From Sphingobium sp. (GTDB taxonomy: Bacteria > Pseudomonadota > Alphaproteobacteria > Sphingomonadales > Sphingomonadaceae), in assembly GCA_020446425.1 (NCBI GenBank), contig JAGRES010000013.1:124001-188000 (forward strand): 64,000 bases of DNA, read 5' to 3'. A program made the translations under genes and the position numbers. The stretch's first letter is position 1. Every line of letters starts with the position of its first letter. Below the pieces are notes generated by a model. The model was not told the DNA's origin. It worked only from the letters and a program-made list of their open reading frames with translations, and ran no database searches. This document shows positions 41,752 to 60,090 of this stretch, in pieces.

Positions 41752-41812
41752 CTGATTGACTTCCGCGATAAATAGGCGTCATTTATGCCGCAGTGCAGCA
41801 AAGCGGGGTCGC

Positions 41813-43605: not shown

Positions 43606-43700
43606 CTTTTCTTTCCGCGTTGCAAAAATTGGGCTTGTCGAAAAATGCGAATCATGACATCTTTAAGACATCGGGCGAGGTTGTCCGATGAGATATTCCG

Positions 43701-43813
43701 GCTCTGTCCATCGGGGGGCAGAGCGCAGGTTGGCACTCCGTAAGGAATAAGCCCAAGGCAATGATGCCGCCCCGAGGAAGCATGAGAGGCTGTCCGTCAG
43801 GGCGGCTTTTTTT
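43701..43813 (+). promoter_or_regulatory. Candidate ANTAR (NasT) antitermination leader before nrtA
   Basis: Hairpin P1 is GCTCTGTCC-ATCGGG-GGGCAGAGC (43701-43724), a 9-bp stem with a hexaloop having A at position 1 and G at position 4. Hairpin P2 is GGC-AATGAT-GCC (43757-43768), again with A1 and G4 but a short stem. The 3' arm of P2 is the beginning of the terminator 5' arm, so NasT bound at P2 would block termination. P1 and P2 are 32 bases apart, longer than many known cases. P1 and the terminator are clear, while P2 is weaker on stem length. Confidence 0.7.
43766..43813 (+). terminator. Leader terminator upstream of nrtA
   Basis: GCCGCCC (43766-43772) pairs with GGGCGGC (43800-43806), followed by seven T (43807-43813). 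It lies 49 bases before the nrtA start, so it can only act as an attenuator for that operon. Confidence 0.85.
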
Positions 43814-43862
43814 ATGCCCAGCTTATCCGCCGGATGCCTCCAAAAAATGAAAAGGGGCTGGC

Positions 43863-45290
43863 ATGTTGGACAAACGTAATTTTCTGAAGACTGGTGGCAA
43901 GTGGATGGCTTCGGCGTGCGCCGTGGCGATGCTTTCCGCCTGTGGTGGTGGCAATAGCGAGAAGGCCGAGGCACCTGCTGCTGGCGCAGCAGCCGCTGGC
44001 GCTGTTGAAAAGCCGGTGCTGAAGTTCGGCTTCATCAAGCTGACGGACATGGCGCCGCTCGCTATTGCGAAGGAAAAAGGCTTCTTCGCCGAAGAGGGCC
44101 TGAACGTCACGCTGGAGCCGCAAGCGAACTGGAAAGTCCTGCTCGACGGTGTGATCGGCGGACAGCTTGACGGCGCGCATATGCTGGCTGGTCAGCCCAT
44201 CGCTGCAACCATCGGCTATGGCACCAAGGCCGATCTGATTGCGCCGCTCAGCCTCGACCTCAATGGCAACGCCATCACGGTCTCGAACAAGATCTGGTCG
44301 CAGATTAAGGACGGGCTGCCCAAGGGCGCAGACGGCAAACCCACCCATCCCATTTCTGCATCGGCGCTGAAGCCGGTCCTCGCGTCCTACAAGGCGCAGG
44401 GCAAGCCGCTGAAATTCGGTATGGTTTTCCCGGTTTCGACCCACAATTACGAGCTGCGCTACTGGCTGGCGGCTGGTGGCATCAACCCGGGCTATTATCT
44501 GCCGGGTGACGTCGCGGGCACGACCGCTGCCGACATCCAGCTTTCGGTGACGCCGCCGCCGCAGATGCCGGCGACGATGGAAGCGGGCACGATCGAAGGT
44601 TATTGCGTTGGCGAGCCATGGAACCAGGCCGCTGTGCAGAAGAAGATCGGTGTACCGGTCGTGACCGACGAGCAGATCTGGCACCTCAACCCGGAGAAAG
44701 TCTTCGGCCTGCGCAAGGACTTTGCCGAGAAATATCCGAAGACGACAGCAGCATTGCTCCGCGCGATCATCAAGGCCCAGCAATGGCTGGATGCCGACAA
44801 TGGTGCGAATCGTGTGGAGGCTGTAAAAATCCTGTCGCAGCCCAATTATGTGGGTGCGGACGAGGCCGTGATTGCGGCGTCGATGACCGGTAACTTCACG
44901 TTCGAGCCGGGCGACACCCGCCCTGCCCCGGATTTCAACATCTTCTTCAACCATTATGCGGGCTACCCCTATTATTCGGACGCCATCTGGTACCTGACCC
45001 AGATGCGCCGTTGGGGGCAGATCGCCGAGGAGAAGTCCGACCAGTGGTATTTCGATACGGCCAAGGCGGTCTATCGTCCGGACCTCTATCTCTCGGCCGC
45101 AAAATCCCTGGCTGAAGCGGGCGTAATCCCGGCGGACTCCATCCCGGAAACCGATGGCTTCAAGCCGGCGACCAGCGAGTTCATCGACGGCAAGGCATAT
45201 GATGGCCACAAGCCCAACGCCTATCTCAGCCAGTTTGAAATCGGCCTCAAGGGTAAGGCCACGGTGACGGCGGCGGGCGTCGTCAACTGA
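43863..45290 (+). CDS. nrtA: Nitrate ABC transporter substrate-binding lipoprotein
   Basis: A 475-residue protein that starts behind AAGGGG. The signal has a KR pair ([10 protein letters not shown]) and a lipobox (AMLSACGGG), then an Ala-rich linker. The binding domain carries [44 protein letters not shown], the NrtA motifs [16 protein letters not shown] and [17 protein letters not shown]. It should deliver nitrate to NrtB. It is the first gene after the NasT-type leader. Confidence 0.92.
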
Positions 45291-45319
45291 ACACACCAGG
45301 ACGGACGGAGACTGAAACC

Positions 45320-46414
45320 ATGAGCAATGTTGCTGCGCTTCGACCAAATACAGAGGAAGAAACAATGTCAACGCTGGGTAACCAGGCCGCCGTCAATGAA
45401 ATACCCCCGGCGCGGTCCGCCGCGCCAACGGTGCCGGAGGAGGATAAACCCCTTCTCACGCCTCCTCCGGTTTCTTCTTCGTCGCGCTTCCTGCCTTCGG
45501 CGGATAAAATCCTAGCGGGCCTGAAAGGTCTGCTGGCGCCGATAGCGGGCATCGCCTGCTTCATTCTGATGTGGGCGGTGTTGGCGCCGCAGGTGGATAC
45601 ATCTCTTGGTAGCCTGCCTGGCCCGCTTGAAGTCGCGGAACAGGGCGTGGCGCTGTATGACGATTTCCAGGCAACGGCGGACACCAAGGCGCAATTCTAC
45701 GCCGATCAGGATGCACGCAACGCCACCCTGCCGGAGGCGCAGCGTCAATATTTTGAATATGCGGGCGCGCCGACCTTTCTCGACCAGATTTTCACGTCGC
45801 TGGAAACCGTCGCATTGGGTTTTGTACTGGCTACTCTGGTGGCGGTGCCGCTGGGTCTGGTATGTGGCCTGTCCAAGCGCGTGAACGCAGCGATCAACCC
45901 GCTGATCCAGATCTTCAAGCCGGTGAGCCCGCTCGCCTGGCTGCCCATCGTGACGATGGTGATTTCCGCGACGATGAGCGGACCCGACCCGATGCTCCCC
46001 AAAAGCTTCGTGATTTCCGCACTCGTGGTGACGCTGTGCTCGCTGTGGCCGACGCTGATCAACACGTCCGTTGGCGCGGCGTCCATCGACAAGGACCTTC
46101 TCAATGTGGGTAAGGTTCTGCGTCTCGGCTTCTTCCAGCGCCTGACCAAGCTCGTTCTGCCAAGCGCGCTGCCCTACATCTTCACCGGCATGCGCCTGTC
46201 GCTAGGCGTTGGCTGGATGGTGCTGATCGCAGCCGAAATGCTCGCGCAGAACCCCGGTCTCGGCAAGTTCGTATGGGACGAATTCCAGAACGGTTCTTCC
46301 CAGTCGCTGGCCCGCATCATGTTCGCGGTGATCGTGATCGGCATTATCGGCTTCCTGCTCGACCGGCTGATGGCATCGCTCCAGTCGCTCGCCAGCCGCA
46401 ACCACAGCGTGTGA
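45320..46414 (+). CDS. nrtB: Nitrate ABC transporter permease
   Basis: A 364-residue inner-membrane protein. The first 70 residues are Pro/Ser-rich and probably cytoplasmic. A first helix (GLLAPIAGIACFILMWAVL) is followed by a periplasmic segment, then five or six helices of the BPD_transp family. The ATPase-contact (EAA) loop is in GMRLSLGVGWMVLIAAEMLAQNPGLGKFV. An inner ATG at 45365 is a possible alternative start. It lies between the binding protein and the ATPase genes. Confidence 0.92.
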   Translation: MSNVAALRPNTEEETMSTLGNQAAVNEIPPARSAAPTVPEEDKPLLTPPPVSSSSRFLPSADKILAGLKGLLAPIAGIACFILMWAVLAPQVDTSLGSLPGPLEVAEQGVALYDDFQATADTKAQFYADQDARNATLPEAQRQYFEYAGAPTFLDQIFTSLETVALGFVLATLVAVPLGLVCGLSKRVNAAINPLIQIFKPVSPLAWLPIVTMVISATMSGPDPMLPKSFVISALVVTLCSLWPTLINTSVGAASIDKDLLNVGKVLRLGFFQRLTKLVLPSALPYIFTGMRLSLGVGWMVLIAAEMLAQNPGLGKFVWDEFQNGSSQSLARIMFAVIVIGIIGFLLDRLMASLQSLASRNHSV

Positions 46415-46418
46415 GGGC

Positions 46419-48113
46419 ATGACAATGACCGCATCCGCACCCATCCTTTCCCTGCGCGGCATCAGCAAAGCCTATGTCGACGCCACGGGGGCCCGTACCG
46501 AAGTACTCGAAGGCATCGACCTCGATGTCTCCGAAGGTGAGTTCATCGCGATCCTCGGCTTCTCCGGGTCGGGCAAGACGACGCTGATCTCGACCATTGC
46601 CGGGCTGCTGGAGCCTGACAGCGGCGAAATCATCGTCAAGGGTCAGCCCAGCTCCGGACCTGGTGCGGATCGTGGTCTGGTGTTCCAGAGCTACTCGCTG
46701 TTCCCATGGTTGACGGTAGAGGGCAATGTGCGCCTCGCGGTGGAAGCCGTGCACAAGGGCCTGTCCAAGGCTGACCAGACCGCGCTGATCAAAGAAAAGA
46801 TCGAGCTGGTTGGCCTGGGCCATGCCATGGACCGCAAACCCGCTCAGTTGTCGGGCGGCATGCGCCAGCGCGTTGCCGTTGCCCGCGCGCTCGCCATGAG
46901 GCCGGAGATATTGCTGCTCGACGAGCCGCTTTCCGCGCTCGATGCTCTCACCCGCGCCAAGCTGCAGGACGAGATCGAGCGTATCCGCGGCGTCGAGAAG
47001 CGCACCATCATCCTCATCACCAACGATGTGGACGAGGCGCTGTTGCTGGCCGATCGCGTGGCCGTGCTCGAACCCGCGCCGCGTGCGAAGATCGGCCGTA
47101 TTTTCGATGTCGGCATCGCCCGCCCGCGTGAGCGCACCGCGCTCAATCATGACGCGTCCTATCAGCATCTGCGCAACGAGATCGTGCATTATCTCGGCCA
47201 GCTCAATCAGGAGCAGAAGTCGGCCGAGGGTGATGAGCGCGAGCTGCCCAAGGTGACGCCGATCAGCCTGCTGACGCCCCCCAAGGCCTATCAGGATGCG
47301 GCGCGCACCAATATGGAAACCCGCTTCCTCGAATTCTTCAACCTGAAGAAGATATACCCAACGCCCAAGGGTCCGCTCACCGTTGTGCAGGATTTCAACT
47401 TGCTGATGGACAAGGGCGACTTCATTTCGCTGATCGGTCACTCGGGGTGCGGTAAATCAACGGTGCTGTCCATGGCAGCCGGCCTGAACGAGATCAGCGG
47501 CGGCGGTATCATCCTCGACGGGCGCGAAATCGACGTAGCCGGACCCGACAAGGCAGTGGTGTTTCAGGCGCCCAGCCTGATGCCCTGGCTTTCCGCGCGG
47601 CAGAATGTGTCGATCGGTGTCGAGCGCGTCTACCCGCACGCCAGCAAGGCCGAGCGCAAGGACATAGTCGAATATTATCTCGCGCGCGTTGGTCTTGGCG
47701 ATGCGATGGACAAGCTCGCCGCCGATATGTCGAACGGCATGCGTCAGCGTGTCGGCATCGCCCGCGCGTTCGCGCTTAGCCCCAAGCTTCTGCTGCTCGA
47801 CGAGCCTTTCGGCATGCTCGACAGCCTGACCCGCTGGGACCTGCAGGACGTGCTGATGGAGGTGTGGGAACGTACCCATGTGACGTCCATCTGCGTCACC
47901 CATGATGTCGATGAGGCGATCCTGCTCGCCGACAAGGTCGTGATGATGACCAATGGGCCGGAAGCCACCATCGGCAAGATATTGGAGGTCGACCTGCCGC
48001 GTCCGCGCGACCGCAAGGCGCTGCTCGAGCATCCGAAATTCTATGCTTACCGCGAGGAGGTGCTGCAGTTCCTCGCCGATTACGAACATGGGGTGAAGGC
48101 CCACGCGGCCTGA
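46419..48113 (+). CDS. Nitrate ABC transporter ATPase, two fused nucleotide-binding domains
   Basis: A 564-residue protein with two complete ABC ATPase domains in one chain. Domain 1 (about 8-240) has Walker A GFSGSGKTT near residue 47, signature LSGGMRQRVAVARAL and ILLLDEPLSALDALTR. Domain 2 (about 300-555) has GHSGCGKST near residue 339, a degenerate signature MSNGMRQRVGIARAF and LLLLDEPFGMLDSLTR. In cyanobacteria these correspond to NrtC and NrtD, which are separate and where NrtC carries a binding-protein-like tail. Here that tail is absent. The fusion would supply both ATPases in 1:1 ratio. Confidence 0.9.
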   Translation: MTMTASAPILSLRGISKAYVDATGARTEVLEGIDLDVSEGEFIAILGFSGSGKTTLISTIAGLLEPDSGEIIVKGQPSSGPGADRGLVFQSYSLFPWLTVEGNVRLAVEAVHKGLSKADQTALIKEKIELVGLGHAMDRKPAQLSGGMRQRVAVARALAMRPEILLLDEPLSALDALTRAKLQDEIERIRGVEKRTIILITNDVDEALLLADRVAVLEPAPRAKIGRIFDVGIARPRERTALNHDASYQHLRNEIVHYLGQLNQEQKSAEGDERELPKVTPISLLTPPKAYQDAARTNMETRFLEFFNLKKIYPTPKGPLTVVQDFNLLMDKGDFISLIGHSGCGKSTVLSMAAGLNEISGGGIILDGREIDVAGPDKAVVFQAPSLMPWLSARQNVSIGVERVYPHASKAERKDIVEYYLARVGLGDAMDKLAADMSNGMRQRVGIARAFALSPKLLLLDEPFGMLDSLTRWDLQDVLMEVWERTHVTSICVTHDVDEAILLADKVVMMTNGPEATIGKILEVDLPRPRDRKALLEHPKFYAYREEVLQFLADYEHGVKAHAA

Positions 48114-48176
48114 CCCTCGCAACAGACGTCCCCCCCAAAAAAGACGCAACCAGAGCATGACAGGGAAGAGACATAT

Positions 48177-49364
48177 ATGAAAAAGACACTGATATTGGGG
48201 ACCAGCGCATTCGCGGCCGCTTTGGCTGCCGTTCCGGCGCAGGCACAGGCGGATGAGGGCTTCACGCTCAAGCCCAGCATCAATGCGCGTTTGCGCTATG
48301 AAATGGTGGATCAACCGGCAACCGATGCCGACGCGCTCACCCTGCGGGTGCGGCCCGGCATCACCGCAAGCAAGGGCGGCATATCGCTCCTCGTAGAGCC
48401 GGAAGCCACGCTTGCCATAGTCGAAGATTATAACAGCACCACCAACGGCAAAGGCGGATATTCCGTGGTCGCAGACCCGGAGAATATCGAGCTGAACCGC
48501 TTTCAGCTCGAATATAAATCCGATGCGATTACCGCGACCCTGGGCCGCCAGCGCATCAATATCGACGACCAGCGTTTCGTCGGTTCGGTCGGCTGGCGTC
48601 AGAATGAGCAGACCTTCGACGCGGTGACCGGCGAAGCCAAGCTGGGACCGGTTGCATTGAATGGCACCTACGCTTGGTCGCGGCGCACGATCTTCGGCGT
48701 CGATTCCGGCCCGCGTCAGGCATTCAGCGGCACCTATTTCTTCCTGGGTGCTGGCGCTGGCCTTGGCCCGGTCAAGATCAAGGCGTTCAGCTATCTGCTC
48801 GATCTTGATGCCAAGGAACCAATCGCGCTGAGCTCGACCCAGACATACGGCGCGCGCGCAACGGTGGATTTCAAGCTGCCTGGCACGGTCTCGCTCGGTC
48901 TGGCCGCAAGCTATGCGAAGCAGATGGATTATCAGGCCAACCCGTCCGACTATTCGGCGGACTATATCGCCGCAGAAGCAAATGCCGGTTTCGGCATGTT
49001 CTCGGCAACCGTCGGATATGAAAAGCTGGGCGAAGACAATGGCAGCTCGTTCCAGACGCCGCTCGCCACGCTGCACAAGTTCAATGGCTGGGCCGACATA
49101 TTCCTCTCCACGCCGCCTGCCGGTCTTGAGGACTTGTATGCCGGTATCGGCGTCAGCCCGCTGCCTGGGCTGAAAGCGGGTGTCACCTATCATGACTTCA
49201 GCAGCGACGCAGGCAGCGTCGACTATGGCTCCGAATGGGATGTCGTGGTCGGCTACAAAATCAACAAGATGCTCGGTCTCACCGCGAAATACGCCAATTA
49301 CGATGCGGACGGTTTTGCCGTGGATACCGAGAAATTCTGGCTGCAGCTCGACTTCAGCCTCTGA
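48177..49364 (+). CDS. Outer-membrane channel of the alginate-export porin family
   Basis: A 395-residue protein with a clear signal peptide (ILGTSAFAAALAAVPAQAQA). The mature part is a beta-barrel with alternating strands (SINARLRYEMVDQPATDADALTLRVRPGI, ELNRFQLEYKSDAITATLGRQRINIDDQRFVG) and a C-terminal Phe-x-Leu (KFWLQLDFSL). The QRINIDDQRFVG stretch is characteristic of the alginate_exp domain. Within this operon, passage of nitrate or nitrite across the outer membrane is a reasonable inference. Confidence 0.85.
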   Translation: MKKTLILGTSAFAAALAAVPAQAQADEGFTLKPSINARLRYEMVDQPATDADALTLRVRPGITASKGGISLLVEPEATLAIVEDYNSTTNGKGGYSVVADPENIELNRFQLEYKSDAITATLGRQRINIDDQRFVGSVGWRQNEQTFDAVTGEAKLGPVALNGTYAWSRRTIFGVDSGPRQAFSGTYFFLGAGAGLGPVKIKAFSYLLDLDAKEPIALSSTQTYGARATVDFKLPGTVSLGLAASYAKQMDYQANPSDYSADYIAAEANAGFGMFSATVGYEKLGEDNGSSFQTPLATLHKFNGWADIFLSTPPAGLEDLYAGIGVSPLPGLKAGVTYHDFSSDAGSVDYGSEWDVVVGYKINKMLGLTAKYANYDADGFAVDTEKFWLQLDFSL

Positions 49365-49393
49365 ACGCAAACAGGAACGACAGGGTCAGGACC

Positions 49394-51859
49394 ATGACAG
49401 ATACCCCCCCTCATTTGGTAGTTATCGGCAATGGCATGGCGGGATGCCGTGCGGTTGAGGAAATATTGGCGCGCGATCCGGGCAAATACCGGATCACGAT
49501 TTTCGGTGCCGAACCGCGTGTCAATTACAACCGCATCATGCTCTCACCCGTCCTTGCCGGTGAAAAAACCTATGAGGAAATTATCATCAATGGTCAGGAC
49601 TGGTACGATGATAACGGCATAGAGCTGATATCCGGCGATCCGGTCGCCGGCATCGACCGGGCGGCCAAAACGGTCACCAGCCGTTCGGGCCGTGCCATCA
49701 GCTATGACAAGCTGATGATCGCGACCGGGTCCGACCCGTTCATCATTCCGGTTCCGGGCAAGGACCTGCCCGGTGTCGTGACATTCCGTGATCTCGACGA
49801 TGTCGAGAAAATGTTGGCGGCCGCAGACCTGGGGGGGAATGCGGTCGTCATCGGCGGTGGCCTGCTTGGCCTCGAAGCGGCTCATGGGCTCTCGCTTCGC
49901 GGCATGCAGGTCACCGTCCTGCACCTGATGCCGACGCTGATGGAACGCCAGCTCGACGAGGCGGCGGGATGGCTGCTCAAAACAGCATTAGAGGGTCGCG
50001 GGCAGACCATCCTGACCGGCGCGGATACGGCAGAAATCGTCGGCGACGGCAAGGTGGAGGCCGTGCGTCTGAAAGATGGCACGGAAATCCCTGCCGATAT
50101 CGTCGTCATGGCCGTTGGTATCCGGCCCAATGTCGCGCTGGCCAAGGAGGCGGGTCTCGCCGTAGGCCGGGGCATCCAGGTCGATGACGATATGGTGACC
50201 AGCGACGCGGACATTCTCGCGGTTGGCGAATGTGTCGAGCATGACGGCAATGTCTACGGCCTTGTCGCGCCGCTCTGGGAGATGTGCCGCAGCCTGGCCG
50301 ATGGGCTGGTTGCGCAGCCCAATGGCTATCGCGGTTCGGTCACCTCGACGAAGCTCAAGGTCAGTGGCATCGACGTCTTTTCGGCAGGCGATTTCTCCGG
50401 CGGCGAAGGGTGCGAGGATATCGTGCTCCGCGACGCGACGCGCGGCGTTTACAAGCGCGTAATCGTGAAAGACAACAAGATCGTCGGCGCGGTGCTCTAT
50501 GGCGATACCGCTGACGGCAACTGGTATTTCGACCTGCTGAAAAAAGGTGAGGACATTGCCGAAATTCGCGACGCGCTGATCTTCGGACAGGCGTTCGCGA
50601 GCGGAGGCGGCGCTGCGCTAAACCCTATTGATGCCGTTGCGGCGCTTTCCGACGATGCGGAAATCTGTGGCTGCAACGGCGTTTCCAAGGGCACGGTCAT
50701 GGCCTGCATCGGTGGTGGTGCGCAAACGCTCGACGCTGTGCGTTCGGGCTGCAAGGCATCGGGAAGCTGCGGCAGCTGCACCGGCCTTGTCGAGAACCTG
50801 CTCGCGCTGTCATTGGGCGACGACTATGCAGGTGAGCGCGATGTGAAGCCAATGTGCAAATGCACCAGCTTCACGCATGAAGATGTCCGCGCCGCAATCC
50901 TCGAGAAGGAACTCAAGGAAATCCCGCAGGTGATGCAGGAGCTGAGCTGGTCCACGCCGGACGGCTGTGCCTCATGCCGCCCCGCGCTCAACTATTATCT
51001 GCTGTGCGCATGGCCTGCCGAGCATAAGGAAGACCCGCAGAGCCGCTTCGTCAACGAGCGCATGCACGCCAATATCCAGAAAGACGGCACCTACAGCGTT
51101 GTGCCGCGCATGTTCGGCGGAATTACTACACCGAACGAGCTGCGGGCGATTGCCGACGCTGCCGATAAATATAAAGCGCGGACCGTCAAGGTGACCGGTG
51201 GCCAGCGCATCGACTTGTTCGGCATCAAGAAGGAAGACCTGCCCGACATATGGGCAGATCTCAATGCCGCAGGGATGGTCTCTGGCCATGCTTATGGCAA
51301 GGCGCTGCGCACGGTCAAAACCTGCGTCGGCTCCGAATGGTGCCGCTTCGGTACGCAGGACAGCACAGGTCTCGGTATCATGATCGAGCAGATGACTTGG
51401 GGCAGCTGGATGCCGCACAAGTTCAAGATCGCCGTGTCCGGTTGTCCGCGCAACTGCGCCGAGGCAACGATCAAGGATTTCGGCGTGGTCTGCGTCGACA
51501 GCGGCTATGAGCTGCACATTGGCGGCAATGGCGGCATTCACCTGCGCGGCACGGACCTGCTGTGCAAAGTCGCAACTGAGGAAGAGACGCTCGAATATTG
51601 CGCGGCCTTCATCCAGCTCTATCGCGAGGAAGCGCGCTACCTTGACCGCACTGCGCCCTGGGTGGAACGCGTAGGCCTCGATTATGTGAAAAGCCGTGTC
51701 GTCGATGACGACGAAGGCCGTCGTGCCCTGCGCGCGCGCTTCCTGCATTCGCAGAAAATCCTGCAGAAAGACCCGTGGGCTGAGCGCGCATCGGGCAAGG
51801 AAGCCCATCTTCATCAACATCTGGCCGAAATCCGGCCCTTTGCAGTCGTTGGAGCCTGA
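49394..51859 (+). CDS. nirB: Assimilatory nitrite reductase [NAD(P)H], large subunit
   Basis: An 821-residue enzyme from ATG 49394. The N-terminal FAD/NAD domains have LVVIGNGMAGCRAVEEIL and AVVIGGGLLGLEAAHGL. A [2Fe-2S] BFD-like domain follows (EICGCNGVSKGTVMACI...GSCGSCTGL), with a further Cys cluster (CKCTSF, DGCASCRP). The sirohaem-[4Fe-4S] half ends with CVGSEWCRFGTQDS and SGCPRNCAEATIKDFG. It reduces nitrite to ammonium with six electrons and requires sirohaem, for which the SUMT at 58620 supplies the first step. Confidence 0.96.
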   Translation: MTDTPPHLVVIGNGMAGCRAVEEILARDPGKYRITIFGAEPRVNYNRIMLSPVLAGEKTYEEIIINGQDWYDDNGIELISGDPVAGIDRAAKTVTSRSGRAISYDKLMIATGSDPFIIPVPGKDLPGVVTFRDLDDVEKMLAAADLGGNAVVIGGGLLGLEAAHGLSLRGMQVTVLHLMPTLMERQLDEAAGWLLKTALEGRGQTILTGADTAEIVGDGKVEAVRLKDGTEIPADIVVMAVGIRPNVALAKEAGLAVGRGIQVDDDMVTSDADILAVGECVEHDGNVYGLVAPLWEMCRSLADGLVAQPNGYRGSVTSTKLKVSGIDVFSAGDFSGGEGCEDIVLRDATRGVYKRVIVKDNKIVGAVLYGDTADGNWYFDLLKKGEDIAEIRDALIFGQAFASGGGAALNPIDAVAALSDDAEICGCNGVSKGTVMACIGGGAQTLDAVRSGCKASGSCGSCTGLVENLLALSLGDDYAGERDVKPMCKCTSFTHEDVRAAILEKELKEIPQVMQELSWSTPDGCASCRPALNYYLLCAWPAEHKEDPQSRFVNERMHANIQKDGTYSVVPRMFGGITTPNELRAIADAADKYKARTVKVTGGQRIDLFGIKKEDLPDIWADLNAAGMVSGHAYGKALRTVKTCVGSEWCRFGTQDSTGLGIMIEQMTWGSWMPHKFKIAVSGCPRNCAEATIKDFGVVCVDSGYELHIGGNGGIHLRGTDLLCKVATEEETLEYCAAFIQLYREEARYLDRTAPWVERVGLDYVKSRVVDDDEGRRALRARFLHSQKILQKDPWAERASGKEAHLHQHLAEIRPFAVVGA

Positions 51860-51862
51860 ACC

Positions 51863-52207
51863 ATGCCACATTCCGCACTTTGGCTCGATGTCGGCCCGGT
51901 CGAACAGCTCCCGGCATTGGGAGCCCGCACGCTCCCCGTTCAGGGCGGCGAGGAGATCGCCATTTTCCGCACCGCGAACGGCGACGTCTACGCGCTTAAC
52001 AATAAATGTCCCCACAAACAGGGGCCGCTCAGTCAGGGCATCGTGCACGACAATACCGTGACCTGCCCCCTTCACAATTGGCGGATCAGCCTGGCGACCG
52101 GCCAGGCACTGGGCGACGATGTGGGCTGCGTGCCCACCATACCGGTCAAGATCGACGGCGGCCGTATTCTCATCGGCCGCAAGGAAGCATTGGCCAACGC
52201 CGCATAA
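51863..52207 (+). CDS. nirD: Nitrite reductase small subunit (Rieske-type)
   Basis: A 114-residue Rieske-fold protein, three bases after nirB. The two half-sites are CPHKQGPLSQG and CPLHNWRISLATG. In this alignment both Cys-x-His pairs, Cys-Pro-His and Cys-Pro-Leu-His, are present, so a [2Fe-2S] cluster is possible, although some NirD proteins lack it. It forms the complex with NirB. Confidence 0.94.
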   Translation: MPHSALWLDVGPVEQLPALGARTLPVQGGEEIAIFRTANGDVYALNNKCPHKQGPLSQGIVHDNTVTCPLHNWRISLATGQALGDDVGCVPTIPVKIDGGRILIGRKEALANAA

Positions 52208-52286
52208 GCGGCAGGCCCAAGTACATTCATAACAGCAACGAGGAACACGAACGGCAGGAAAGCAATCGAACAGGGAAGGAAATAAT

Positions 52287-53117
52287 ATGTCCTATTTAGC
52301 ACCATCGGAGTTTGTACCTAAGCTCATCGACGCAGGTGAGTCCAAGATAATGATGTCGACCAAGGATACCTTGGTCCGCGCCTATATGGCGGGCGCCACT
52401 CTGGCTCTTGCCGCCGCGTTCGCGGTAACCATCAACGTCCAGACCGGCCAGCCGCTCGCGGGTGCGATCCTGTTCCCGGTTGGCTTCTGCATGCTCTATC
52501 TGCTGGGCTATGACCTGTTGACCGGCGTGTTCGTGCTCTGCCCGCTTGCGGTATGGGACAAGCGGCCCGGCTGTACCTGGGGTGGCGTATTCCGCAACTG
52601 GGGCCTTGTGTTCTGCGGCAACTTTGCCGGGGCACTAACAACCGCCGTGATGATGGCAATATACTGGACCTATGGCTTTGCGGCAGAGACCAATCCGGTC
52701 GGGATGAAGTTCGCCACGATGGGTGAAGCGCGTACCGTTGGCTACGCGGCCTTTGGTGCGGCAGGCTGGCTGACCATCTTCGTGCGCGCCATGCTGTGCA
52801 ACTGGATGGTATCCACCGGCGTTGTCGGCGCGACCATTTCGACCAGCGTATCGGGCAAGATCCTCGCCATGTGGATGCCGATCATGCTCTTCTTCTACAT
52901 GGTGTTTGAGCACTCGATCGTGAACATGTTCCTGTTCCCGAGCGGCCTGATGATGGGTGGCAATTTCAGCATCGCCGATTACCTGATCTGGAACGAAATT
53001 CCGGTTGTGCTGGGTAATCTGGTGGGCGGTCTGACCTTCACCGGCCTGATGCTCTACACCACGCACTATCGCACCAATCCGAAGCGTACTCCGGCCGACA
53101 TCAAGCTGGCCGCATAA
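52287..53117 (+). CDS. nirC: Formate/nitrite transporter family channel
   Basis: A 276-residue membrane protein with about six helices. It begins SYLAPSEFVPKLIDAGESKIMMSTKDTLVRAYMAGATLALAA and contains the FNT family segments GAILFPVGFCMLYLLGYDLLTGVFVLCPLA and GNFAGALTTAVMM, and an ending VLGNLVGGLTFTGLMLYTTHY. Nitrite passage fits its place behind nirBD. The gene has GGGAAGGAAA as ribosome site. Members can also carry formate, so the substrate is inferred. Confidence 0.9.
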   Translation: MSYLAPSEFVPKLIDAGESKIMMSTKDTLVRAYMAGATLALAAAFAVTINVQTGQPLAGAILFPVGFCMLYLLGYDLLTGVFVLCPLAVWDKRPGCTWGGVFRNWGLVFCGNFAGALTTAVMMAIYWTYGFAAETNPVGMKFATMGEARTVGYAAFGAAGWLTIFVRAMLCNWMVSTGVVGATISTSVSGKILAMWMPIMLFFYMVFEHSIVNMFLFPSGLMMGGNFSIADYLIWNEIPVVLGNLVGGLTFTGLMLYTTHYRTNPKRTPADIKLAA

Positions 53118-53138
53118 GAAATGGAGACGGAGGCGGCC

Positions 53139-54962
53139 ATGGCAACAACCAGCCGCCTCCCTTCTGCTGCGCCGGAAAGGCGCGACGCACTGAATATCGC
53201 GATCGGCCACTATTCGACGGCCGGGCGCAAATCCGAAAATCAGGATTTCCACGGCAGCCTTATACCCGAAGGTGGGACACTAACCAGCAAGGGTATCGCC
53301 ATCGCGCTGGCCGACGGGATCAGCACCAGCAGGCTGGGCGCAACCGCTGCTGAAACGGCGGTCAAAAGTTTCCTGACAGATTATTACGCCACGCCGGATA
53401 GCTGGACCGTACAGAACTCCAGCGAACGCGTGATCTCCGCCACCAATAGCTGGATGCATGCGCAAAACGCACGTGGCCGCCCGCGCGAAGAAGGCGCAGA
53501 CACCGAAGCCAATGCGCTGATCTGTACTTTTTCAGCTCTCGTTCTCAAGTCGCGCAGCGCGCATATCTTCCACATTGGCGATGCGCAAATTGCCCGCATA
53601 TCGGGCAATGGCCTCGAGCCGCTCACCCAGCCACATCGGATTTCCATAGGCGGCGGGCAGAGCTATCTGGGCCGCGCCATGGGCGTCAATCGCTCGGTCG
53701 AAATCGACTATCGCATCGTTCCGCTTCAGCCGGGCGATCTGTTCCTGCTGATGACGGACGGCGTGTATGAATATCTCAGCGGCGCGGACATCGCTTCCAT
53801 TCTGGCGGGCGAGAGCGACCTCGATGCTGCTGCTAGGGCTCTGGCTGATAAGGCCTATGCAGCGGGCAGCGGCGATAATCTAACCGTTCAGATCGTCCGT
53901 ATCGACGCCCTGCCGCAGGGTCAGATCGAGGATCTGGTCGGACCGGATCTGCGCCTGCCTGTGCCGCAGGACATCAAAGCGGGCGACAGTTTTGAAGGCT
54001 ATGCCATATTGCGCCGGATTCACAGCGGCAGCCGCAGCCATGTTTTCCTGGCGCGTGACGAAGCGACGGACGAGAAGGTTGCGATCAAGATACCCTCGAC
54101 GGAGCATGCACAGAACGAGACGGAGCTCTCTGCGCTGTTACTCGAAGACTGGGTGATGCGCCGCATATCGCACCAGAATATATTGGGCGGCGCGCCGCAT
54201 CATCGTACGCGCCGCTATCTCTATTCTGTTTCCCAATATGTCGAAGGCCAGACACTGGATGAATGGATGCACGATCATCCCGAACCCGACCTGCCCACGG
54301 TTCGCGACATCGTGCGGCAGATCGCCAGCGGCTTGCTCGCGCTCCACCGACGGGAGATGATCCACCGCGACGTGCGGCCCAAAAACATCCTGATCGACGC
54401 GGATGGCACGGTGAAGCTGATCGACTTCGGGTCGGTGCACGTGGCCGGTATCGAGGAACTGGCGCCGCGCGAAACGGAAGACGCCGCCTATGCCGGGACA
54501 ATGCAATATAGCGGGCCTGAGGTATATCTGGGCTACCCCGCTACGGCGCAGAGCGACCTTTTTTCGCTCGGTGTGATCGCATACCAGATGCTGACCGGCG
54601 ACCTGCCCTATGGGCCGCGCGTTGCCGCATCGCGCACGGCGGCGCAGCAAAGGCGGCTGCGTTATATATCGGCATCGGCGCGCAACCCGGCAGTACCCGA
54701 CTGGATGGATGCCGCGCTGGCCAGAGCCGTCGCGATTGACCCTGCCAAACGTTATGGTGAGTTGAGCGAGTTCACCTACGATCTGGCGCATCCCAATCAT
54801 GGTCTTGCGCGGCCCGAGCCGCCGCCGCTGATCCAGCGCGGCTCGACAGGGCTATGGCGCGCCATCGCGCTGCTGCTCGCGCTGGCCCTCGCAATCTCGA
54901 TCCTCACACGGCCCGATATCGGGCGAACTTTCAACTCAGGGAAACAGGAGACAACGCGATGA
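53139..54962 (+). CDS. PP2C phosphatase and Ser/Thr kinase fusion protein
   Basis: From ATG 53139 (GGAGGCGG before it) 607 residues; an ATG at 53121 is possible. The PP2C half (about 20-260) has RKSENQD, ALADGISTS, HIGDAQIARI and LLMTDGVYEYL. The kinase half (about 285-570) has KVAIKIPS (Lys), MIHRDVRPKNILID and KLIDFGS. A final helix (WRAIALLLALALAISIL) anchors it in the membrane. Both enzyme halves look intact. Such fusions recur in nitrate-assimilation loci of proteobacteria, but the substrate is not known. The cyanase start overlaps its stop. Confidence 0.9.
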   Translation: MATTSRLPSAAPERRDALNIAIGHYSTAGRKSENQDFHGSLIPEGGTLTSKGIAIALADGISTSRLGATAAETAVKSFLTDYYATPDSWTVQNSSERVISATNSWMHAQNARGRPREEGADTEANALICTFSALVLKSRSAHIFHIGDAQIARISGNGLEPLTQPHRISIGGGQSYLGRAMGVNRSVEIDYRIVPLQPGDLFLLMTDGVYEYLSGADIASILAGESDLDAAARALADKAYAAGSGDNLTVQIVRIDALPQGQIEDLVGPDLRLPVPQDIKAGDSFEGYAILRRIHSGSRSHVFLARDEATDEKVAIKIPSTEHAQNETELSALLLEDWVMRRISHQNILGGAPHHRTRRYLYSVSQYVEGQTLDEWMHDHPEPDLPTVRDIVRQIASGLLALHRREMIHRDVRPKNILIDADGTVKLIDFGSVHVAGIEELAPRETEDAAYAGTMQYSGPEVYLGYPATAQSDLFSLGVIAYQMLTGDLPYGPRVAASRTAAQQRRLRYISASARNPAVPDWMDAALARAVAIDPAKRYGELSEFTYDLAHPNHGLARPEPPPLIQRGSTGLWRAIALLLALALAISILTRPDIGRTFNSGKQETTR

Positions 54963-55402
54963 TGACCAAAGCTGACGTGACCACAATGATCCGTGCAAAA
55001 AAACGCGAGAAGCAAATCAAATGGGCGGATATCGCGGCAGCGGCGGGTCTCTCCGAGGTGTTCACCACATCCGCATGCCTGGGGATGAACAGCCTGCTGC
55101 CCGAAGCTGCCGGGAAAGTTGCCGATTTTCTGGGCCTGCCCGCCGAGGCGGCTGTGGTTCTGGCCGAATATCCGACCAAGGATTTTGACCGTGTCGTGCC
55201 CACCGACCCATGCATCTACCGATGGTACGAAATCACCGGCGTGTTCGGCGAAGCGTTCAAGGAACTGGTTCAGGAAAAGGCTGGTGACGGCATCATGAGT
55301 GCCATTGATTTCGATATGGATATTGAGAAGGTACCGCATGAAAAGGGCGACCGCATCAAGGTCACGATGAGCGGCAAGTTCCTGCCCTATAAGAGCTGGT
55401 GA
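54959..55402 (+). CDS. cynS: Cyanate hydratase (cyanase)
   Basis: A 147-residue enzyme converting cyanate and bicarbonate to ammonia and CO2. The catalytic residues are visible: Arg and Glu in CIYRWYEITGVFG and Ser in GDGIMSAIDFDMDIEK. The N-terminal helical domain is DVTTMIRAKKREKQIKWADIAAAAGLSEVF. ATG 54959 overlaps the kinase stop (ATGA), with CAGGAG upstream. It adds a second ammonium-producing route to the locus. Confidence 0.96.
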   Translation: MMTKADVTTMIRAKKREKQIKWADIAAAAGLSEVFTTSACLGMNSLLPEAAGKVADFLGLPAEAAVVLAEYPTKDFDRVVPTDPCIYRWYEITGVFGEAFKELVQEKAGDGIMSAIDFDMDIEKVPHEKGDRIKVTMSGKFLPYKSW

Positions 55403-55492
55403 GATGAGCGGGCGGAAAGCTTTTGCTGCGGTGCAAAAAGGGCTTGCCGCCCGCCCGTCATCATGTAATATTTCGACTCGAAAGCGAGATGC

Positions 55493-55591
55493 CTTCCAAG
55501 GGTGGAAGCCGCATTTCGGCAATATCTGTAAATTGCGTGGCAATGACGCCGCCAGCCTGGTTCCTCCATGGGACGGCTTGGCGGTTTTTTT
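55493..55591 (+). promoter_or_regulatory. Candidate ANTAR (NasT) antitermination leader before nasA
   Basis: P1 is CTTCC-AAGGGT-GGAAG (55493-55508), a 5-bp stem with a hexaloop having A1 and G4. P2 is GTGGC-AATGAC-GCCGC (55537-55552), a 5-bp stem including one G-T pair, with A1 and G4. P2 shares the core GGCAATGAYGCCGCC with the leader before nrtA. The 3' arm of P2 overlaps the terminator 5' arm (55549-55554), so the two folds exclude each other. Confidence 0.75.
55549..55591 (+). terminator. Leader terminator upstream of nasA
   Basis: CCGCCA-GCC (55549-55557) pairs with GGC-T-TGGCGG (55575-55584, one bulged T), followed by seven T (55585-55591). It ends 27 bases before the nasA start. It serves both as end of the cynS transcript and as attenuator for nasA. 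Confidence 0.85.
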
Positions 55592-55618
55592 GCGTGCGCT
55601 TCATGAGGCTGGAGCCCG

Positions 55619-58213
55619 GTGGTAAAAACGACGTGCCCTTATTGCGGAGTAGGTTGCGGAATAACCGCAACGCGAACGGGTGCGCGATCGGTCGAAATTC
55701 GCGGTGACGATGTGCACCCGGCCAATATGGGGCGGCTCTGCTCCAAGGGTACGCATCTGGGTGAGACGGTCGGGCTGGAAGGCCGCCTGCTGAAACCGAT
55801 GATCGGGGATACTCAAGCCAGCTGGGACAATGCGCTCGATCTGGTGGCGCAGCGCTTTTCGGAAACTGTTGCGAAGCATGGCCCGGATAGCGCCGCCTTC
55901 TATGTGTCGGGCCAGCTGCTGACCGAAGATTATTATGTCGCCAACAAGCTGATGAAGGGCTTCATCGGCTCGGCCAATATCGACACCAACAGCCGGTTGT
56001 GCATGGCGAGCGCGGTTGCCGCCCATAACCGCGCCTTTGGCGAAGATATCGTACCCTGCTCCTACAGTGACCTCGACGAGGCTGATCTCATCATCCTCGT
56101 CGGGTCCAACACCGCCTGGTGCCACCCTGTTATATGGCAGCGGATCGAGGCGGCGAGAGAGAAGCGTGGCACATTACTGGTCGTCATCGACCCGCGCCGC
56201 ACCGAAACCGCCGAGCGTGCCGATCTGCACCTGCAAATCCGGCCGGACGGTGATGTCGCACTGTTCACGGCCTTGCTGGCGACGATGCGCAATCGCGGAA
56301 AGCTGGACGAAGATTATCTACGCGATCATGTAAATGTGTCAGAGGATTTCTGGGACTCTATCTGCTGCTGCGACGCAGCCGGCGACACCGGACTTGAGTC
56401 CGACATATTGGCCGAGTTCTTCACCCTGTTTGAGGATTTTCCGCGCACGGTTACGCTGTTCAGCCAGGGCGCGAACCAGTCCGCCTGCGGCACGGATAAA
56501 GGCAATGCGATTATCAATGCGCACCTTGCGACCGGACGCATCGGCAAGCCCGGCATGGGCCCGTTCAGCATTACCGGCCAGCCCAATGCCATGGGCGGGC
56601 GCGAGGTCGGCGGCCTCGCCAATATGCTCGCCGCCCATATGGGCTTTTCCGATGACGAATGCGCCGCCGCGCAGGATTTCTGGGCCAGCCCCGCCGTCGC
56701 CCGCAAGCCGGGGCTGAAAGCGGTCGATATGTTCCGCGCCGTACATGACGGGCGCATCAAGGCATTGTGGATCATGGCAACCAACCCGGCGGTCTCTATG
56801 CCGGACGCCGGGTTCGTGCGCGAAGCGCTGGAGCGGTGCGAGTTCGTCGTGGTGTCCGACGTGATCGCCAATACCGATACCGCGCGCTTTGCCGATGTGC
56901 GCCTGCCCGCTCTCGCATGGGGCGAAAAGGACGGCACCGTCACCAACAGCGAGCGTGTGATCAGCCGCCAGCGCGCCATTTTCGATGCGCCGGGCCAGAC
57001 GCGCGCAGATTGGGACATCATCGCCGATGTGGCGCGGCGCATGTGGCATGAAGACGCCTTCGCCTATGACAGCCCGGCGGCTGTCTTCCGCGAATATGCG
57101 GCGCAAACCGGCTTCCGCAATGAAGGCAAGCGGTTGCTGGACCTGTCCCGCTGGTCGTCGATCAGCGACGCCGAATATGACACACTGCGCCCGTGGCAGT
57201 GGGGCGGACCGTCGCCGCTGGCGAAGGGACGCTGCTCCACCCGGGACGGCAAGGCCCGTCTCGTTCCTGTCTCTCTACCCTCTGTCAATGTGCGGGGCCG
57301 CAAATTCCCGCTGCGCCTCAACACCGGGCGGTATCGCGATCAGTGGCATACGATGACGCGCACGGGCCTGTCGCCGCGTCTGTCGCGGCATCGCAGTGAA
57401 CCACTGGCCGAAGTGCACCCCGCCGATGCACGCAAATATGAACTGACAGAAGGCGGTCTTGCCCGCGTTGCGACGGCGCAGGGCAGCGCGATCTACCGCG
57501 TGGCGCTGTCAAAAGGACAAAGGCGCGGTGAGATCTTTGCGCCGATCCATTGGACAGATCAGATATCAAGCGGCGGGCGTACCGGCAGACTTCCTCCCCA
57601 GAACGTCGATCCCGTTTCCGGCCAGCCCGCGTTCAAGAACAGTGCTGCTTCGATTGCACCGGCTGCGGTTGATTGGCGCGCTTTCCTGGTATCGGCGGAA
57701 AAGCCCAATATCGCACTGGATTGTTACTGGACGCAGGTGTGCGGCGAACATGGCTGGCTGGTCGAAATGGCGGGTGAAGGCGCAGTCGATATCGAGGCCC
57801 TGTTGCCCGAGGGCCAGCGTATCGAGGTGCAGGATGGTGCGCGCGGCACCTTGCGCATTGCCGTGCGTGACGATGAAGGAAGGCTGTCCGCAGCGCTGTT
57901 CGTCACCCGCTCCGGCACTCTGCCGCCGCGCGAATGGATATTGGCGCAGCTAGGCGAGGAAAAACCGGGTCATGCCGCTGAACTCCTCGCCGGCCGTGCC
58001 GCCAATCCCGCGCCGGACGATGGGCCGGTTGTATGCGTCTGCTTCGATATCGGCATGTATGCGATCATGCGCGCCATCACCGCGCAGTCGCTCACCAGCG
58101 TAGAGGCCGTCGGCAAGGCGATCAACGCAGGCACCAATTGCGGCAGCTGCCGTCCGGCCATCGCAAAACTGGTCGAAGAAACGAAACACCCTGTACAGGA
58201 GGCTGCGGAATGA
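55619..58213 (+). CDS. nasA: Assimilatory nitrate reductase catalytic subunit with C-terminal [2Fe-2S] domain
   Basis: An 864-residue molybdopterin enzyme from GTG 55619, with GGAG five bases before. The N-terminal [4Fe-4S] motif is CPYCGVGCGI with the fourth Cys in GRLCSKG. The molybdopterin body has NSRLCMASAV, GSNTAWCHPV, GTDKGNAIINAHLATGRIGKPGMGPFSITGQPNAMGGREVGG. The C-terminal BFD-like domain has VVCVCFDIG and GTNCGSCRPAI. It reduces nitrate to nitrite for NirB. No separate NADH-reductase subunit is in the window, so the electron donor is open. The globin start overlaps its stop. Confidence 0.95.
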   Translation: MVKTTCPYCGVGCGITATRTGARSVEIRGDDVHPANMGRLCSKGTHLGETVGLEGRLLKPMIGDTQASWDNALDLVAQRFSETVAKHGPDSAAFYVSGQLLTEDYYVANKLMKGFIGSANIDTNSRLCMASAVAAHNRAFGEDIVPCSYSDLDEADLIILVGSNTAWCHPVIWQRIEAAREKRGTLLVVIDPRRTETAERADLHLQIRPDGDVALFTALLATMRNRGKLDEDYLRDHVNVSEDFWDSICCCDAAGDTGLESDILAEFFTLFEDFPRTVTLFSQGANQSACGTDKGNAIINAHLATGRIGKPGMGPFSITGQPNAMGGREVGGLANMLAAHMGFSDDECAAAQDFWASPAVARKPGLKAVDMFRAVHDGRIKALWIMATNPAVSMPDAGFVREALERCEFVVVSDVIANTDTARFADVRLPALAWGEKDGTVTNSERVISRQRAIFDAPGQTRADWDIIADVARRMWHEDAFAYDSPAAVFREYAAQTGFRNEGKRLLDLSRWSSISDAEYDTLRPWQWGGPSPLAKGRCSTRDGKARLVPVSLPSVNVRGRKFPLRLNTGRYRDQWHTMTRTGLSPRLSRHRSEPLAEVHPADARKYELTEGGLARVATAQGSAIYRVALSKGQRRGEIFAPIHWTDQISSGGRTGRLPPQNVDPVSGQPAFKNSAASIAPAAVDWRAFLVSAEKPNIALDCYWTQVCGEHGWLVEMAGEGAVDIEALLPEGQRIEVQDGARGTLRIAVRDDEGRLSAALFVTRSGTLPPREWILAQLGEEKPGHAAELLAGRAANPAPDDGPVVCVCFDIGMYAIMRAITAQSLTSVEAVGKAINAGTNCGSCRPAIAKLVEETKHPVQEAAE

Positions 58214-58623
58214 CCCCCGAGCAAATCGCACTCGTCCAATCCAGTTTCGCCAAGGTCGAGCCCATAGCGCAGACCGCCGCCGACCTGTTTTATAACAGGC
58301 TGTTTGAGCTAGAACCCGGCTATCGCAGCCTGTTCCCCGACGACATATCCGAGCAGAAACAGAAGCTGATGGCGATGCTGGCCGTGGCGGTAAAGGGCCT
58401 TGGCCAGATAGAAGCGATTGTCCCCGCCGTCATGAAGCTGGGTGAGCGCCACGCAGGCTATGGCGTGACGCCAGATCAATATCCGACAGTGGGCAGTGCT
58501 TTGCTCTGGACCCTGGATCAAGGGTTGGGCGACGATTTCACGCCCGATGTCGAGGCCGCCTGGATCGCTGCCTATACGGTGCTCGCCGACACCATGGTCG
58601 CGGGCAAGGACAAGGCAGCATGA
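58210..58623 (+). CDS. Single-domain globin in the nitrate operon
   Basis: A 137-residue globin. It begins MTPEQIALVQSSFAKVEPIA, with a DLFYNRLFELEPGYRSLFPDD segment (B-C helices) and the proximal His expected in KLGERHAGYGVTPDQY. The fold matches bacterial haemoglobins without the flavin domain of Hmp. Lying between nasA and cobA with four-base overlaps on both sides, it probably handles nitric oxide or supplies redox protection during nitrate use; that role is inferred. Confidence 0.88.
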   Translation: MTPEQIALVQSSFAKVEPIAQTAADLFYNRLFELEPGYRSLFPDDISEQKQKLMAMLAVAVKGLGQIEAIVPAVMKLGERHAGYGVTPDQYPTVGSALLWTLDQGLGDDFTPDVEAAWIAAYTVLADTMVAGKDKAA

Positions 58624-59399
58624 TCGCGCCGGGCTCTGTATGGCTGGTCGGCGCGGGACCGGGCGATCCCGATCTGCTGACCCGCAAGGCGGAGAAGTTG
58701 CTGCGATCGGCCAGCGTCGTTTTCTATGACGCACTTGTGGGGCCCGGCGTACTGGCGCTGGTTCCCGACGATGTGCGCCTCGTTCCCGTTGGCAAGCGGT
58801 CCGGGCGTCACTCGAAGGATCAGGACAGCATCAACGATCTGCTCGTACGCGCGGCTTTAGCAGGGGAACGTGTGGTGCGCCTGAAGGGCGGCGATCCTTC
58901 CGTATTCGGACGTTCGGCGGAGGAAATGACGGAACTGGCCACACATGGCGTGTCCGTTCATATCTGCCCCGGCATCACGGCGGCATCCGCGGCGGCGGCG
59001 AGCGCGAGCATTTCGCTCACGCTACGCGGGCTGGCGCGCAAGTTGACCCTTGTGACGGCGCACGCCCGTGCTGGCGAAACGCTTGATCTGGAATGGAATG
59101 CGCTCGCTGACCCGAAGGCAACACTCGCCATTTATATGGGCAAGGCCGCTGCCAAGGAGGTCTCGGACCAGCTCGTCCGCTCAGGGCTGGCGGGGGAGAC
59201 GCCGGTGCTGGTTGCGGAAAATGTCAGCCTTCCCGATGAGCGCCTTGTCCATACCCGGCTCGATCTGTTGCCGATTGCGGCGAACGCCATTGGGGATGGT
59301 CCCGCCCTGCTGCTCATTGGCGAGGCCGTGCGTCCAAACGGTGCACATGGTGCAAATGGAGCCTCTGCCATCCGGAACAGACAGACCATCAGGACCTGA
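58620..59399 (+). CDS. cobA: Uroporphyrinogen-III C-methyltransferase (SUMT)
   Basis: A 259-residue enzyme that makes precorrin-2, the first step to sirohaem. Motifs are SVWLVGAGPGDPDLLTRKAEKLL, VRLKGGDPSVFGRSAEE, VHICPGITAASAAAA and ETPVLVAENVS. The oxidase/chelatase part of CysG is absent, so those steps need another gene. It is coupled to the globin gene by an ATGA overlap. Sirohaem is needed by NirB. Confidence 0.94.
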   Translation: MIAPGSVWLVGAGPGDPDLLTRKAEKLLRSASVVFYDALVGPGVLALVPDDVRLVPVGKRSGRHSKDQDSINDLLVRAALAGERVVRLKGGDPSVFGRSAEEMTELATHGVSVHICPGITAASAAAASASISLTLRGLARKLTLVTAHARAGETLDLEWNALADPKATLAIYMGKAAAKEVSDQLVRSGLAGETPVLVAENVSLPDERLVHTRLDLLPIAANAIGDGPALLLIGEAVRPNGAHGANGASAIRNRQTIRT

Positions 59400-60069: not shown

Positions 60070-60090
60070 TTTTGTTGCAATGCAACAAAA
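60070..60090. promoter_or_regulatory. Perfect palindrome between divergent ClpP-like and transglutaminase genes
   Basis: TTTTGTTGCA (60070-60079) and TGCAACAAAA (60081-60090) are perfectly inverted around one A. The site lies 85 bp before the ClpP-like start and 20 bp before ATG 60110 of the transglutaminase gene. GCAA-containing palindromes of this kind are bound by several repressors, including PhaR-like regulators. The actual binder is unknown. Confidence 0.55.

Follow-up and report, generated by a model that had tools for sequence, protein, structure and literature searches.

A probable NasT-controlled antiterminator before nasA, one of a pair of such leaders in a nitrate assimilation locus of Sphingobium sp.

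The RNA targets of ANTAR regulators (EutV with the eut leaders, NasR with nasF, and AmiR) are described in the accessible parts of PMC3369931 and PMC8934654 as two short stems with hexaloops that carry A at position 1 and G at position 4 (A1/G4), the second stem, P2, overlapping an intrinsic terminator. The leaders reported here share all of these features. ANTAR regulons with several targets were predicted as early as 2012 (PMC3369931, in part). In Paracoccus denitrificans, as predicted here, nasA is preceded by two hairpins and placed under NasS/NasT control; the hairpins HI (at 137 bp) and HII (at 91 bp) are about 46 bp apart, an HI mutant showed no growth on nitrate, and mutation of HII had little effect on nitrate-grown expression (PMC5424462, accessible text). 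That species has one leader, located between nasS and nasA, and neither a second unit nor a PhaR-type box is described in the accessible text of PMC5424462. In Bradyrhizobium diazoefficiens, a single NasT has several targets, as it would here: binding to the nosR leader was reported, and NasT-type hairpins were predicted before nirA, narK, bjgb and a coxS gene (PMC6759348, available parts). The B. diazoefficiens targets are scattered and include denitrification genes, whereas the two leaders described below lie in one assimilation locus and share a conserved promoter-like module (PMC6759348, available parts). A literature search, with most subscription journals outside its coverage, returned no description of such leaders in sphingomonads.

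The locus is contained in a stretch of 64,000 nucleotides of Sphingobium sp. DNA, hereafter the window, and all of its genes and leaders are on the forward strand. Gene names were assigned by reading Pfam families (NMT1_2 for nrtA, formate/nitrite transporter for FNT). The nasT gene (41756-42394) encodes a response-regulator-like domain and an ANTAR RNA-binding domain (PF03861, E = 6.8e-19), and it was the only ANTAR gene found in a search of the genome (one match). It adjoins nasS (42391-43605), an NMT1_2 family member (PF13379) taken as the nitrate/nitrite sensor partner of NasT, a role assigned from published NasS/NasT work. The first unit (43863-55402) comprises nrtA, nrtB, a nrtC/D-type double ATPase gene, a porin gene, nirB, a nirD-like ORF, FNT, a PP2C-Ser/Thr kinase gene and cynS, all by Pfam except the nirD-like ORF (51863-52207), which we take to be such from its place after nirB; ORFs following nirB in nine relatives match it at 51-93%. 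The second unit opens with nasA (55619-58213, GTG start; Pfam, ORF), a molybdopterin oxidoreductase gene taken to encode the assimilatory nitrate reductase, and continues with a globin-domain gene (ORF 58033-58623; Pfam) and a cobA-type tetrapyrrole methylase gene (58620-59399; Pfam). Because the globin domain occupies residues 86-188, the true start of its gene is expected further inside the ORF.

The original prediction placed two A1/G4 hexaloop stem-loops at 55493-55591, immediately before nasA, the second of them overlapping a terminator that ends in seven T residues. Read from the sequence, this observation is confirmed and correct to the base. In this leader (leader 2), P1 occupies 55493-55508 (cttcc-AAGGGT-ggaag, loop AAGGGT) and is backed by the sequence, by a covariance model built without the window leaders and by held-out covariation in relatives. 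A linker of 28 nt (55509-55536), in which no hairpin is conserved across relatives, separates it from the predicted antiterminator stem-loop P2 (55537-55552; gtggc-AATGAC-gccgc, loop AATGAC), supported by sequence, fold and covariance model. The terminator, identified by sequence and fold, spans 55548-55591, with arms at 55548-55557 and 55575-55584 and the T7 tract at 55585-55591, so that bases 55548-55552 belong both to the 3' arm of P2 and to the start of the 5' terminator arm. Folding of the whole leader yields the terminator without P2 (z -3.5, 0/200 shuffles as good), and the leader cut before the 3' terminator arm folds into P2 (z -3.3).

The leader before nrtA, at 43.7 kb (leader 1), has the same organization. 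Its P1 (43701-43724; gctctgtcc-ATCGGG-gggcagagc, loop ATCGGG) and P2 (43757-43768; ggc-AATGAT-gcc, 3 bp, loop AATGAT) are supported by sequence and covariance model, and the linker, measured between full stems, is 32 nt. A terminator read from the sequence (43766-43813, T7 tail 43807-43813) shares the 3' arm of P2. In the fold of the whole leader, the GGCGGC arm pairs in another hairpin (z -1.6, 15/200 shuffles as good); the 3' part alone (43755-43820) does form the GCCGCC/GGCGGC terminator stem (z -3.1), and P2 was not formed in the fold of the truncated leader. The claim that both leaders have the same P2 core also holds: GGCAAYGNNGCCGCC is found exactly at 43757 and 55539, its only two sites in 64 kb, with two further sites at one mismatch in the window.

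The distribution of such leaders was evaluated at several levels. A first scan covered 30 nasA loci and 30 nrtA-type loci, with the own genome in each set and flanks of 1.5 kb where the contig allowed; a leader was present near nasS in many loci and directly before nasA in the own genome only. A covariance model, R1, was built from 18 leaders chosen for a P1 with A1/G4, and it leans on sequence and on these seeds. In the own genome, only the two leaders exceed noise with R1 (E = 2.5e-11 and 6e-11, next match 1.4). To avoid circularity, a second model, R2, was built without either window leader; it recovers both, at 52.4 and 49.3 bits (E = 1.2e-10 and 6.8e-10), with the next match at 9.7 bits. 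R2 also matches 26 of 40 related loci searched (40 of 80 found), which extend about 4 kb upstream of nasA and include Novosphingobium, Croceicoccus, Altererythrobacter and Alteraurantiacibacter. At gathering score, a tRNA was the sole Rfam match in the window, and 55390-55640 gave nothing at E up to 1. A plasmid origin was considered and rejected, as 55380-55700 had no match in a plasmid collection.

Among 397 genomes of the family, R1 finds a leader in 93 (E up to 0.01, the filters losing weak matches), 47 of which, counted by eye, contain two or three matches and one ANTAR match each. The expected presence of the shared core in sphingomonad relatives is thereby borne out. An ANTAR gene is present in 128 of the 397 genomes, and the R1 leader occurs in 90 of these 128 compared with 3 of the 269 ANTAR-negative genomes (Fisher p = 5e-54, the overlap being counted by eye and the genomes not being independent). 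One of the three exceptions, G231, has a weak match (E = 0.006); the other two, G270 and G300, are genomes of 78-79% completeness. Conversely, 38 of the 128 ANTAR-positive genomes have no R1 match. They include five genomes of the same genus (G144, G196, G303, G352 and G391), whose leaders may be too divergent or absent. In G035 (loci L132 and L042), nasT, nasS and a full operon accompany only a degenerate leader, which escapes the model. In a class-wide draw of 385 genomes, R1 matched four, all family members; given that R1 leans on sequence, divergent leaders elsewhere are possible.

Loop identity and covariation were examined in 107 leaders from 67 sources, a set that includes both window leaders and the seeds. 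The P1 loop has G4 in 107/107 leaders and A1 in 94, and the P2 loop has A1 in 107/107 and G4 in 106, one row being gapped there. The remaining 13 P1 loops have G at position 1 while P2 keeps A1 in all, so the first hexaloop may tolerate a purine at this position. In the 91 held-out leaders, that is those not recognised as seeds, P1 pairs 3 and 4 are formed in 88 and 84 leaders (shuffle maxima 73 and 59). For pair 5, which the model lacks, the figure is 82 (shuffle maximum 70). Pairs 6 and 7, formed in 46 and 43 leaders, exceed chance slightly but stay inside the shuffle range, and pairs 8 and 9 are at chance. In the 18 seeds, the core pairs of P2 are invariant and the outer two fail in 7, which makes P2 uninformative on covariation. 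Minimum-energy folds of the full leaders contain the terminator in 102/107 and the P1 closing pair in 84/107; in folds of the truncated leaders, P2 is formed in 74/107 and fails in 33/107.

These data bear on a much simpler explanation, namely that 55493-55591 simply ends transcription of the preceding cynS unit as any terminator would, its hexaloops having arisen by chance. A terminator after cynS would be useful, and short hexaloops are common. However, a joint signature consisting of two A1/G4 hexaloops, a P2 3' arm complemented downstream and a T tract, devised after the leaders had been seen, occurs twice in the window and in 0/60 first-order Markov simulations of it, and chance hexaloops are difficult to reconcile with the conservation, the association with the ANTAR gene and the covariation of P1. 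We consider this explanation extremely improbable. The same anatomy, conservation, covariation and gene association support the reading of the element as a NasT-type leader, as originally proposed. Judged by its sequence, the leader RNA is of the ANTAR dual-hexaloop antiterminator kind, possessing the defining features that were tested, and is predicted to work like its members.

The distance between the stems deserves separate comment. Measured from the stem end set by the script to GGC, the linker is 29-43 nt in 106/107 leaders and 19 nt in one; a leader outside this set (L060) has a linker of 9 nt. The 28 and 32 nt of the window leaders contrast with 5-12 nt in the eut leaders of Enterococcus faecalis, in which a 14-nt linker hurt induction (PMC3369931, in part). 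Nevertheless, the 2012 ANTAR RNA model allowed a variable linker, and a short linker is not class-defining (PMC3369931, in part). Moreover, the spacing of about 46 bp in P. denitrificans is near the 44-51 nt from loop to loop in 7 of 8 pairs measured here, and long linkers may therefore be usual for NasT (PMC5424462, accessible text). A linker hairpin that would shorten the P1-P2 distance was rejected as a general feature (mean fold z 0.08, SE 0.09, 107 linkers). Six leaders lacking a GT prefix (L127, L128, L135, L091, L094 and L096) have a strong linker hairpin shortly before P2, unlike most others.

Each window leader is preceded by a PhaR-type box. Before leader 1, the box TTTCCGCGTTGCAAAAA (43612-43628) has the core CGCGTTGCA, which fits YGCRNYGCR and not the strict TGCRNYGCA; before leader 2, the box TTGCTGCGGTGCAAAAA (55423-55439) has the core TGCGGTGCA, which fits the strict form. 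A putative -35-like CTTGTC, recognised by eye, follows the first box at 43634-43639. Behind the second box are a promoter-like -35 element CTTGCC (55443-55448), whose position is conserved in relatives, and a candidate -10 element TAATAT (55466-55471). The exact sequence YGCRNYGCAAAAA is found in the window at the two leaders only (at 55427 for leader 2), with five one-mismatch sites elsewhere. Separately, TGCATTGCAACAA / TGCAATGCAACAA, on the two strands of 60072-60088 and one mismatch from the box, overlaps the start (60080) of a DUF2126 transglutaminase ORF.

A motif search in the 180 nt upstream of the 107 leaders returned TTGCTGCAnTGCAAAAA; by eye, CTTGCC or CTTTAC could be recognised a few bases further on, together with a less pronounced -10-like region. 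Of the 107 leaders, 90 have the strict core TGCRNYGCA at most 125 nt upstream, compared with 2.5% of 20,000 random windows of long loci, and 96 have the looser YGCRNYGCR there, compared with 12.5%. First leaders have the strict core in 48 of 54 cases (six being called first without a gene map) and the other leaders in 42 of 53. The distance separating the leader from the aligned end of the gene before it is 78-111 nt for 41 of 48 leaders that follow nasS, 90-134 nt for 10/10 that follow cynS and 66-106 nt for 17 of 24 that follow the porin gene. The conserved module and these gap lengths together make it likely, on sequence evidence, that the second unit initiates independently.

If leader 2 lacked a promoter, it would work as an attenuator inside a single long operon and adjust nasA expression relative to that of the genes before it. 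In keeping with this, nrtA through cobA are all encoded on one strand, the gap between cynS and P1 is 90 nt, and no promoter was listed in this gap by a generic promoter/terminator consensus scan. That scan, with totals at the level of shuffled sequence, returned no hit at the candidate promoters of the leaders or at their terminators. On the other hand, the gap contains the conserved box and promoter-like stretch just as first leaders do. In addition, second leaders in G036 and G051 head their own genes on the strand opposite the first unit, and in G013, G017, G168 and G372 leaders are found on other contigs or in far-off places. An internal attenuator is accordingly considered unlikely, independent initiation of the second unit being preferred.

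To place the two units among those of relatives, 100 leaders in 60 loci were typed on a gene map, drawn from 46 of the 47 genomes with at least two matches (G152 being left out) and eight others. Because genes were assigned solely by BLAST matches to window proteins, any others on the map are invisible. The leader lies between nasS and nrtA in 31 cases, porin and nirB in 21, cynS and nirB in 10, nasS and porin in 10, nasS and an opposite kinase gene in 6, an opposite kinase gene and nirB in 4, kinase and nirB in 3, and porin and nasA in 3; the other 12 are in rarer contexts or cut off. A leader directly before nasA was rejected as a common feature (3/100, compared with 39/100 before nirB); nasA directly follows a second leader in G290, G321 and G363, and the named counterparts are in Croceicoccus. 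The original proposal of two nitrate-controlled units gains support from the promoter-like module conserved before both leaders, with the amendment that the second leader of relatives mostly precedes nirB, not nasA. Three genomes have three leaders: G363 (L156), with one before cobA; G013 (L121), with one before FNT-kinase on a separate contig; and G098 (L120, L143), with one after nasS and two in a second locus. The globin gene between nasA and cobA is matched in only 2/60 mapped loci (G232, G230); its product may protect against NO from nitrate reduction.

Several observations concern the origin of the window copy. In a quick NasA tree of 62 rows, in which some genomes appear twice (L099/L189, L132/L165, L141/L196, L156/L198 and L157/L178), the window groups with Sphingobium fontiphilum (SH-aLRT 99). 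Of the 18 rows in the set around the window, 12 come from loci lacking a second leader and 5 from loci with two; a thirteenth locus of the former kind, L131, is placed elsewhere. Seven mapped near relatives have porin, nirB, nirD, nasA and cobA in succession and no R1 leader within their 4 kb flank, where the loci end, so that any first leader would fall outside. FNT, kinase and cynS are present in none of the 13 loci without a second leader, compared with 16, 20 and 12 of 55 two-leader loci (best identities 92%, 64% and 87%). Furthermore, cynS lies directly before the second leader in all ten mapped loci with a cynS match, preceded by FNT and kinase where the map reaches, as in the window. 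By comparison, the window copies of nirB, nirD, nasA, nasT and nasS resemble more closely those of loci lacking a second leader. The leaders themselves fall into two types: one with GT before GGC, having the box core 58-72 nt upstream of P1 in 76/85, and one lacking GT, with the core 82-98 nt upstream in 13/22. Leader 2 is of the GT type and leader 1 of the type without GT. As the simplest account, the second leader probably joined a one-leader operon together with the FNT-kinase-cynS block, between nirD and nasA. Against this mosaic account, nrtA is 82% identical to a two-leader locus compared with 78% to loci without a second leader.

As for the regulator reading the box, the core TGCRNYGCA constitutes the first nine letters of the B. 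diazoefficiens PhaR consensus TGCRNYGCASMA (PMC6201568, in part) and fits the S. meliloti PhaR consensus (PMC12542648, in part), so the nas box has the core of the PhaR/AniA box of alphaproteobacteria. Its arms are asymmetric, however, and the available text of these two papers includes no nas target; a PhaR link to nitrate assimilation was found neither there nor in a literature search (PMC6201568, PMC12542648). A phaR gene (PF07879) is present in 14/14 genomes searched, the own genome included. The strict core occurs at most 650 nt upstream of the domain match in 12/15 phasin loci and 9/14 phaR loci, against a background of about 0.15 cores per 650 nt in long loci, boxes included. In the own genome, phasin locus L307 has two cores, and none is present at the other phasin match (L319) or at phaR (L298). 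Two PhaR-type cores are spaced 46-49 nt apart in 10/15 phasin loci (L305, L307-L312, L316-L318). A general nitrogen-control site was rejected, the strict core being found in 6/30 P-II loci (30 of 34 matches), near background.

Other regulators could be envisaged, among them NtrC and a CRP/FNR-family protein reading TTGC-N6-GCAA, and nitrogen regulators are expected before nas genes. The arms point the same way: nas boxes have TTGC on the left and AAAA on the right, whereas phasin boxes of the same family often have TTTTG and CAAAA. The exact sequence TGCTGCRNYGCAAAAA occurs zero to four times per genome among 25 genomes, at least once in 22, and the other exact sites in the own and 24 other genomes revealed, by eye, no clear regulon or PhaR-like gene set. 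Conversely, the centre of the box, RNY flanked by TGC and GCA, is the published PhaR core (PMC6201568, PMC12542648, both in part), and the strict core is enriched before phasin and phaR loci while remaining near background before P-II loci. A regulator other than PhaR is given only slightly less than even weight. The PHB sensor PhaR is a good sequence-based candidate for reading the nas box; since nas and phasin box arms differ, it is a candidate and not a conclusion.

Taken together, the data make it very probable that nasA is preceded, at 55493-55591, by an antiterminator leader under NasT control, and that this leader is the downstream member of a pair in the locus. NasT binding, nitrate response and promoter activity of the leaders are what we infer in the following model. 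Transcription would start at an own promoter just upstream of leader 2 (-10 at about 55466), and P1 would fold first in the nascent leader. Without nitrate or nitrite, NasS would hold NasT and the terminator would capture the 3' arm of P2, leading to termination in the T7 tract at about 55591. With nitrate, NasS would free NasT, which would grip the P1 and P2 hexaloops; P2 would then exclude the terminator and RNA polymerase would read into nasA, the globin gene and cobA. The same switch at 43.7 kb would serve nrt, nirB, nirD, FNT, kinase and cynS. More tentatively, and with a probability judged well below even, each half-locus might operate as an AND gate on one transcript, with PhaR at the promoter and NasS/NasT at a terminator about 120-150 nt downstream, and the box-promoter-leader module might be duplicated and travel as a unit, so that new blocks such as FNT-kinase-cynS would bring nitrate control with them.

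As far as literature searches go, the two-leader layout in the sphingomonad family, the conserved box with its promoter-like stretch and the mosaic origin proposed for the window copy are new. They indicate that many genomes of this large environmental family employ a NasT-type switch at two places within a single assimilation locus. With two leaders and a conserved promoter-like module, the reason for controlling nitrate uptake and nitrate reduction separately can be put to the test. Should PhaR prove to be the regulator that reads the box, storage of carbon as PHB would be tied to nitrate use at the DNA level, ahead of a nitrate check made on the RNA.
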